Shown piece by piece: positions 261 to 53,620 of a stretch of 64,000 nucleotides of DNA. The stretch comes from Ralstonia sp. SET104. GTDB taxonomy: Bacteria > Pseudomonadota > Gammaproteobacteria > Burkholderiales > Burkholderiaceae. Within the stretch, counting starts at the first letter, position 1. The number at the start of each line of letters is the position of its first letter. The notes beneath the pieces were generated by a model. It was not told the DNA's origin and did not search any database. It worked only from the letters and a program-made list of their open reading frames with translations. A program made the position numbers and the translations under genes. The stretch spans positions 1-64,000 of the forward strand of contig NZ_BHVX01000017.1 of assembly GCF_003851545.1 (NCBI RefSeq). The letters run 5' to 3'.

Positions 261-458
261 TTAGCGATCCGTAACTCTCCGATGAGGTCGCCGTATAAGC
301 GGCAGGCCTTGGCACACTCGCGCGCTTTCTATGGCGGGCCGGGTGGGGAGACCTTCGGGTCTACCGGTTTTCTCGGAGAGCCGGATCGCTAACCCCATCG
401 TCGGGCCCGCCTCCCTCGTTTAGCGACGAAAGACGGGCCTTTCATCTATCTCCGAGAG
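261..458 (+). ncRNA. c4 / P4-CI-like antisense RNA leader (locus 1)
   Basis: The region between the terminator and the small gene at 552 is highly structured. Block A (261-282: ttagcgatccg, then ctctccga) is the reverse complement of block B (373-392: tcggagag, then cggatcgctaa) over 11 + 8 bases. The two words recur in sense order as block C (ttagcga 420-426, tctccga 449-455). Between A and B lie a UUCG hairpin (gacc/ggtc, 350-361) and the 5' arm ggcgggcc (333-340), whose partner ggcccgcc is at 404-411. A sense-antisense-sense order is the architecture of phage P4 seqA-CI RNA-seqC and of the P1/P7 c4 RNA. The 85-codon reading frame across 135-392 lacks a ribosome site and is probably a by-product of the conserved RNA. 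Family assignment is inferred from architecture. Confidence 0.55.
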
Positions 459-52817: not shown

Positions 52818-52823
52818 CCGGTG

Positions 52824-52865
52824 CGGCGGCGTACAGATGAGTGCGCCGCCGTATCAAACCGGTTT
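52824..52865. terminator. Hairpin cluster between dctA and the convergent small gene
   Basis: GC stem cggcggcg (52824-52831) with cgccgccg (52844-52851), followed by the palindrome aaaccggttt (52856-52865). No clear T tract. Probably terminates dctA and its convergent neighbour. Confidence 0.5.
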
Positions 52866-53223
52866 ACTCCTGCGCCTCATAACGCCGCTGCGCCTCGGCG
52901 ACGATGCGTTGCCACTCGCAGCGGGTCGTGCGCTCCTTGCATATCTGGATCAGAAGGTCGCCAAGGTCGCGATGCTGTCTGGCAATGCCGAGCCGCCCTT
53001 TGATCAGCCGCAATGCCTGTTGCAGGCGTGTCACGCGAGCCCTGGCCTTGCCTTGTTCCTGTGAGCCGGGCGGAGATCTCATCGCTGATTGTTCAGCCGC
53101 CACGAGCGCGCGCACTAGATCGGCGCGTTGCTGTTCAAGCGATGCGCGTTCGCGGTTGATCGTGGCGTGTGTCTTGTGGATTGGTGACGGCGTTTGCTCG
53201 GGGTGAGCAGGGGCATGGCGCAT
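52864..53223 (-). CDS. Small orphan protein, 119 aa, downstream of the second antisense-RNA-like leader
   Basis: Starts MRHAPAHPEQTPSPIH after a perfect aggagg at 8 bases. Rich in Arg, Gln, Ala and mostly helical; a coiled-coil run covers residues 20-60 (INRERASLEQQRADLVRAL). Ends EWQRIVAEAQRRYEAQE. No membrane segment or known domain. It lies inside the otherwise conserved dctA-dctBD neighbourhood, on the opposite strand, which suggests insertion. The leader at 53232-53444 probably controls it. Confidence 0.6.
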   Translation of the reverse strand: MRHAPAHPEQTPSPIHKTHATINRERASLEQQRADLVRALVAAEQSAMRSPPGSQEQGKARARVTRLQQALRLIKGRLGIARQHRDLGDLLIQICKERTTRCEWQRIVAEAQRRYEAQE

Positions 53224-53231
53224 CGTGGCGG

Positions 53232-53444
53232 CCTCCTGTGACAGGATTGACATACCCGCCCCCGACGCCAATCGGGTGGCCGGGCACAAGGCAAGGTTGG
53301 CGTTCCGGCGTCACAGGCAACCGGCGAGCGCAAGCGCTCCCTCACCAAGGCCCGACCGCAGAGGCGCTTGATGAACGGGCGTAAAAAAACCGCCAAACGG
53401 CGGTTGCCCGCCTGTGACAATCCTGGACGCCAATCCAGGGTCAC
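53232..53444 (-). ncRNA. c4 / P4-CI-like antisense RNA leader (locus 2)
   Basis: Read on the minus strand, block A (53444-53402) has a hairpin gtgac-cctgga-ttggcg-tccagg-attgtcac, then caggcgggcaacc. A terminator-like stem follows (aaccgcc/ggcggtt, seven T). Block B (53322-53295) is antisense to it, with ggttgcctgtgac and cgccaacc complementary to the tail and loop of A. Block C (53276-53232) repeats the loop hairpin cccga-ttggcg-tcggg and gtcacagg, running directly into the aggagg ribosome site. Sense-antisense-sense order with a terminator between A and B is the P4 immunity / P1 c4 RNA plan. The long minus-strand reading frame across this region is probably a by-product. Confidence 0.6.
53383..53405 (-). 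terminator. Attenuator-like terminator within the antisense leader
   Basis: Minus-strand stem aaccgcc gttt ggcggtt (53399-53405 with 53388-53394) followed by seven T residues (A run 53383-53389). It lies before the small gene, not after one, and its 5' arm adjoins the tail of block A, so it could be a conditional terminator. Confidence 0.8.
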
Positions 53445-53620
53445 GTTGTTTGCGTGACCGTTGAAGTATAGCGCACGGGTGGTGCAGCCTTGGATGGTTC
53501 CGGGCGGCGCGACAAGACCAAGGTCGGGCTGCGCAGTTCGATCGTGAACAAATTTGGAAAGCGTATGATCGCGGAGCCAGTCCTTCCGGACGGCCCCGCT
53601 TCTTTTTGAGGCGTTTCCTC

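Follow-up and report, generated by a model that had tools for sequence, protein, structure and literature searches.

A probable phage-type C4/isrK antisense switch standing alone in the chromosome before a small gene in Ralstonia sp. SET104

C4 antisense RNA is processed by RNase P to approximately 77 nt, as in phages P1 and P7, and the c4-a1b1 motif is an upstream copy of the C4 targets. In Weinberg 2010 (PMC2864571), c4 antisense RNA is listed alongside the c4-a1b1 motif, which has an entry of its own. The b' target of C4 overlaps the ribosome site, and the a' target lies upstream of it (PMC5320573). The isrK locus of Gifsy-1 comprises a short terminated leader and a read-through mRNA, the leader pairs with a downstream segment and a small ORF follows; its authors raise the possibility that the downstream RNA modulates termination (PMC4825925). 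The CI RNA of P4 is a single processed RNA with both an upstream and a downstream target (seqA/seqC), and termination is the output of the system (PMC4825925). In Burkholderia cenocepacia J2315, dRNA-seq assigned a terminated isrK of 81 nt and a C4 of 90 nt to one transcription unit (PMC4603805). Group 1 of Acinetobacter baumannii consists of 21 similar C4-like sRNAs in one genome, 15 of which have a conserved upstream Region 1; phage or host targets in trans, and an auxiliary role for Region 1, were considered for them (PMC5320573).

We analysed a unit of this kind in a 64,000-nucleotide stretch of DNA from Ralstonia sp. SET104 (contig NZ_BHVX01000017.1, positions 1 to 64,000; the window). 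It is likely a copy of the C4/isrK antisense switch of phages that stands by itself in the chromosome, and in which a C4 RNA from the middle of the transcript is predicted to silence its own transcript. The reading is built on the anatomy of the unit, the family membership of its central RNA, words that are coordinated among its relatives and purifying selection on its gene family; as judged from these features of the sequence, the unit is a real and probably working variant of a known RNA switch.

Read from 53470 to 52864 on the minus strand, the unit opens with a TATACT box, followed by block A and a terminator, then by blocks B and C, and last by an ORF of 119 aa (Table 1). A sequence-only reading of this DNA had reported loops and complementary words in the three blocks, a perfect terminator with seven T between A and B, and a block C that runs into the ribosome site. 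All of these elements were found on that strand and in that place, and the AGGAGG overlaps the GTCACAGG word of block C. The reported location holds, whereas the unit itself is slightly longer and includes the TATACT box on one side and the gene on the other. TATACT also precedes block A in seven full relatives from the genus (L050-L056); a consensus scan found no consensus sigma-70 promoter at the unit.

Table 1. Features of the unit in the window (positions counted from the first nucleotide of the window).
Feature	Position	Strand	Remark
Promoter-like -10 box TATACT	53465..53470	-	just 5' of block A; putative
Block A, isrK-like leader RNA	53383..53459	-	RF01394 near-match; fold z -3.86
A a1 loop TTGGCG	53433-53428	-	
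A b1 word GTCACAGG	53418-53411	-	
GGCGG arm, candidate antiterminator	53408..53412	-	overlaps b1 end; can pair with terminator CCGCC
Intrinsic terminator	53383..53405	-	AACCGCC-GTTT-GGCGGTT 53405-53388; seven T 53389-53383
Block B, C4 antisense RNA	53272..53363	-	RF01695 match
B b' word CCTGTGAC	53317-53310	-	
B a' word ACGCCAA	53303-53297	-	
Block C, target a2 + b2	53232..53276	-	before the 119-aa ORF
C a2, hairpin-loop TTGGCG	53271-53266	-	
C b2 word GTCACAGG	53242-53235	-	runs into AGGAGG
Shine-Dalgarno AGGAGG	53237-53232	-	
ATG	53223-53221	-	
119-aa ORF, family III here	52864..53223	-	helical by prediction
Lineage-specific insertion between dctA and dctB	52818..53541	.	extent approximate, boundaries by eye

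The covariance-model search proposed in the sequence-only reading assigned block B to the C4 family: it scores 51.7 bits with the Rfam model RF01695 (gathering cut-off 45), covers the full model (1-87) and aligns to the whole C4 structure, an outer stem with two inner hairpins. Folded alone, B had a minimum-energy structure with the outer stem only and without the inner C4 hairpins (z -1.99), so its C4 fold rests on the covariance model; the fold of block C is no more stable than those of shuffled sequences (z -0.84). The paired part of the outer stem opens with a GGU, and the a' and b' sequences of B are complementary to the target at the ribosome site, as in C4. Block A scores 48.8 bits with the isrK model RF01394, below the gathering cut-off of 50 (E 1.6e-9 in a 521-base search), ends in a 3' intrinsic terminator as isrK does, and belongs to the only unit with an isrK match in its own genome. 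The order and spacing of A and B are those of an isrK-C4 unit: among the genus matches listed, each of the seven that exceed the isrK cut-off has its end 23-31 nt upstream of a C4. The model for sRNA-Xcc1 (RF02221) gave no match in the same genome, and its controls gave none either. By these tests the unit is a member of the C4 family and isrK-like, yet below the isrK cut-off, with a different cargo and a predicted attenuator.

The window holds a second C4, locus 1, to which the unit had been described as sequence-unrelated. That description is misleading. Locus 1 (327-417, plus strand) scores 66.6 bits with RF01695, more than the unit itself, its words TCGCTAA and CTCGGAGA match its own flanks, and its downstream ORF (552-803) is an 83-aa family II gene; a scan found no T-tailed perfect hairpin between its A and B. 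We rejected a new RNA class, because both loci belong to RF01695. Nor is the claim of a new switch logic supported, since such a layout has already been described for phage C4 and Gifsy-1 IsrK.

With the C4 of P1 and P7 the unit shares the Rfam family and the arrangement of the b' and a' targets, but it lies outside a phage and its gene is not icd/ant. Its intrinsic terminator between A and B may be a further difference. Gifsy-1 isrK has in common with it a terminated leader, a read-through layout, complementarity between the leader and a downstream segment, and a small ORF; in contrast, block A scores just below the isrK cut-off, no relative of anrP or antQ was identified at the window unit, and the alternative structures described for Gifsy-1 differ from the GGCGG/CCGCC/GGCGG competition of the window. 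P4 CI/seqA/seqC, likened here by description alone, follows the same two-target logic that we propose for the unit, and the B. cenocepacia J2315 unit has adjacent isrK and C4 RNAs as in the window, a likeness of the RNAs. In contrast to the trans targets considered for A. baumannii Group 1, the window unit has matching targets in both flanks. In the accessible part of the literature on C4 antisense RNA, isrK and RF01695, supplements and subscription journals aside, we found no stand-alone self-targeting C4 switches of small genes, and nothing in full-text literature that joins C4 RNA, Ralstonia and antirepressor.

The pattern of the GTCACAGG word is by itself moderately unusual only: in dinucleotide shuffles of the 235-nt stretch, an 8-nt word stood on both sides of its own complement in 9 of 2000, so the case for its reality rests on comparison. 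We define family III units as C4 units with a relative of the 119-aa gene. Twelve matches yielded 8 full units, and a metagenome contig (L289) is the ninth counted. The counts leave out L049, which lacks A and has a damaged C; L057, whose gene is partial; L058, in which no C4 was seen; and L059, which lacks A and has a frameshifted gene. Four b words occur in the family: the window unit has GTCACAGG, its relatives ATCGCAGG, GACAAAGG or GATACAGG. Whichever word is used, its copies in A and C fit the B loop in 9/9 full units; the a word TTGGCG is constant. The sequence-only reading had named drift that breaks the complementarity in related strains as telling against a switch; no such drift was seen among the four words. 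Computed duplex energies for the four words predict that each B loop prefers its own A and its own C (8/8 rows) and, from the target side, that 7 of 8 columns are bound best by their own B, the exception being the A of L051, which the B of L050 binds slightly better.

The same coordination extends through the genus. For 65 distinct B stretches (107 fetched loci, which are part of the genus matches, minus identical B stretches), the complementary run to A averages 7.85 when matched and 5.82 when swapped, and that to C 7.54 and 5.55; for A and for C each, none of 20000 permutations reached the observed mean. Runs of at least 7 nt in both A and C are present in 47 of the 65 stretches, compared with 22% (A) and 18% (C) of single swapped pairs that reach 7, and in 20/20 loci from other genera, a sample favouring high scores. 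The B of the window unit is complementary to parts of other units as well, over 8 nt in the C region of L004 and over 12 nt in the A region of L018, so crosstalk among units may occur. Terminator-like sites numbered 6 in the 861 bases scanned (three being overlapping versions of the unit's own), with a shuffle mean of 0.9. The two Rfam matches, the terminator and, above all, the coordinated words in relatives place the unit beyond chance. Relative to the known C4 and isrK systems, what is new at the level of sequence is that the address words have been rewritten together in A, B and C.

In family III, blocking of the b1 word is predicted to flip the leader into its terminated form. The b1 word ends in GG, which are the first letters of the GGCGG arm, and CCGCC is the 5' arm of the terminator. 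By folding, the terminator probability of the free leader ranges from 0.01 (window) to 0.54 and becomes 1.00 with b1 blocked in 9/9 family III units, a predicted release of the terminator by C4 that is new; equally long control blocks placed elsewhere raised it to 0.9 at none of 33 places in the window unit and at 0-10 of 31-35 in the relatives (10/32 in L051). The flip follows from the design, because b1 overlaps the GGCGG arm, and is still an equilibrium model. As a general property of C4 units it is unsupported. Of 92 units surveyed, 26 have a terminator, and 21 of these also have a b1 word of at least 6 nt and could be measured. The 21, which include the window unit and one other of family III, divide into 5 that flip (L301 reaching only 0.80), 14 in which the terminator probability is already at least 0.70 in the free state, and 2 that hardly form the terminator either way. 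A perfect T-tailed hairpin lies upstream of the C4 in 14 of the 65 distinct genus units.

Together with the described systems, this anatomy suggests a mechanism. A promoter 5' of block A would produce one transcript containing A, the terminator, B, C and the gene; part of the transcripts would end at the terminator as a short isrK-like A RNA, and read-through would yield B, which would be excised as C4 RNA, as by RNase P in phages P1 and P7. Pairing of the C4 b' loop and a' strand with C would cover the Shine-Dalgarno sequence of the 119-aa gene and mask GTCACAGGAGG. The C4 words could also pair with A, where b1 overlaps the antiterminator GGCGG arm, so that CCGCC would be released and the terminator would form; C4 on A would thus act as negative feedback by attenuation. 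An excess of short A RNA might titrate C4 and thereby switch on the gene, in the way that IsrK, acting in trans, activates its own mRNA. When the full-length transcript was folded, A paired on B with 7.9 expected pairs and C on B with 0.09. Because the long transcript folds A on B rather than B on C, excision of C4 may be needed for repression, and up to that step the uncut transcript could be in the ON state. The switch put forward in the sequence-only reading, in which B influences termination on A and masks the ribosome site on C, fits the described C4 and IsrK systems and the coordinated words; the pairing itself, the transcription and processing of the unit, and its repression and derepression we infer.

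The 119-aa ORF has matches in 11 of 150 sampled family genomes, its own included. It had no Pfam match above the cut-off, and in this respect differs from the downstream antirepressor of P1/P7 immI; PHROGs and NCBIfam gave weak, unconvincing matches only. A defence-family identity was rejected when PADLOC returned no match for three proteins, this ORF among them, and a phage gene when tblastn (E up to 0.1) with the family III protein and one family II protein found no match in 50,697 phage records. AlphaFold predicts four helices for the protein (mean pLDDT 76.9, pTM 0.50). Values of dN/dS between 0.11 and 0.54 among family III members (28 pairs; those involving the window copy, with dS >1, are rough) show purifying selection on the family III gene, as measured among relatives and between relatives and the window copy, outside the window's own lineage. 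At a guess, the product is a phage-derived small effector that stays silent until C4 is lost or titrated.

The unit lies between genes that we take, from their protein sequences, to be dctA and dctB. These are 822 nt apart here and 134-173 nt apart in 15/15 other genus genomes, where the unit would not fit. Relatives carry the family III unit at another, single shared chromosomal site, the genome's own copy at that site (L014/L059) lacks block A and has a frameshifted gene, and the window protein is 51-56% identical to other family III proteins. From the different site, the broken copy and the lineage-specific insertion we conclude that the window unit is, by its sequence context, a separate, lineage-specific arrival. 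Identities led us to reject a recent duplication from L068, the genome's second copy of family III: L068 matches relatives with up to 86% DNA identity, versus 47-54% protein identity, in two pieces, with the window gene. A lone unit between dctA and dctB that carries a non-antirepressor cargo under purifying selection is, on these comparisons, new. Elsewhere, a second C4 stands just 5' of the family III unit at L055 1102-1193 and L052 2159-2250, as if by tandem duplication, and in another genus a family III remnant (L049, near 1186-1512) with a C4 and no block A adjoins a tRNA gene. L289, the sole IMG/VR contig with the family III gene, looks chromosomal by eye and has the same LuxR-like flank.

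C4 units are numerous in this genome (4.8 Mb), which has 19 matches (L001-L019), 16 of them over the cut-off. They precede three recurrent families of small genes, and those checked had no convincing database match. A complementary run of at least 7 nt is found in A for 16 of the 19 and in C for 11 of the 19; the five group I units (L008, L012, L013, L015 and L018) have no matching b word in C. By eye, matches such as L006 and L011 look decayed, and a C4 just under the cut-off (L017, C11:93113-93209) stands before a 300-aa protein with an OST-HTH/LOTUS domain. At the 107 fetched genus loci, tblastn (E up to 0.01, within 700 nt of the C4 locus) identified family II in 70, family III in 9, family I in 5 and none in 23. 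In a sample of the phylum, 62 of 398 genomes had a C4 match, and several had at least 10.

Viral contigs contain units of the same build. Three of about 40 kb (L221, L228 and L287) carry the A-terminator-B-C layout, with words identical to those of the window, before a 229-aa ORF that Pfam identifies as Bro-N in L221 and that looks nearly identical in the other two, and L296 has a similar unit before a gene whose first residues resemble family III by eye. These contigs point to a phage origin of the unit. Within the genus, the C4 units L021, L108, L135, L151, L156 and L164 precede an ORF like the Bro-N antirepressor, confirmed by Pfam for L021. A 17.6-kb viral contig (L299, 2415-4389) holds C4, isrK and int-alpA RNA together, suggesting a satellite-like element.

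Such an origin could also mean that the unit is a decaying remnant of prophage immunity, whose words are complementary by recent phage ancestry and which regulates nothing at present. The words and layout shared with viral contigs, the genome's second family III unit without block A and with a broken gene, and the decayed look of its other C4 matches all agree with this. We nevertheless consider it unlikely, given that four different words are complementary in three places in 9/9 full units, that relatives keep the unit at one shared chromosomal site, and that dN/dS between family members, though outside the window's own lineage, indicates constraint.

It is likewise rather improbable that the unit serves mainly in immunity, its C4 acting in trans to silence the antirepressor of incoming phages that carry its words, with the downstream gene secondary. 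Two observations speak for such a function: three viral loci, nearly identical to one another, have exactly these b' and a' words before a Bro-N-type gene, and a role in superinfection was suggested for the chromosomal C4-like RNAs of A. baumannii (PMC5320573). Against it, the exact word pattern, searched with a single spacing, gave four stretches in the viral collection; three belong to one lineage, and the fourth, L288, lacks the C4 layout. Only about 5 nt of b' vary, so that coincidence is plausible, and the units have their targets in their own flanks and bring genes of their own. A search for the short-word target in viral contigs was uninformative, giving at least 120 stretches, as expected by chance. 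That the complementarity in this GC-rich intergenic stretch arose by chance can be virtually dismissed, despite the shuffles that produce a flanked 8-nt word, in view of two Rfam families in their usual order and spacing, the matched-run permutations and the coordinated words.

The stand-alone switch therefore remains our preferred reading. We would also advance, as a speculation that we consider improbable, that the Ralstonia C4 set, with up to 20 units per genome, many outside phages and each with its own words and its own small gene, is a panel of RNA-word phage sensors, in which the leader flip of family III would hold the gene off and the leader RNA of a phage with the same word would titrate C4 and turn the gene on. 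What the unit itself means is that an RNA switch of phage immunity probably also exists on its own, carrying other cargo, and that nature offers a set of antisense switches with different addresses, whose words are rewritten in three places together. Chromosomal C4 RNAs, which in Acinetobacter were described as sRNAs that might have targets in trans, would thereby become testable as self-targeting units.
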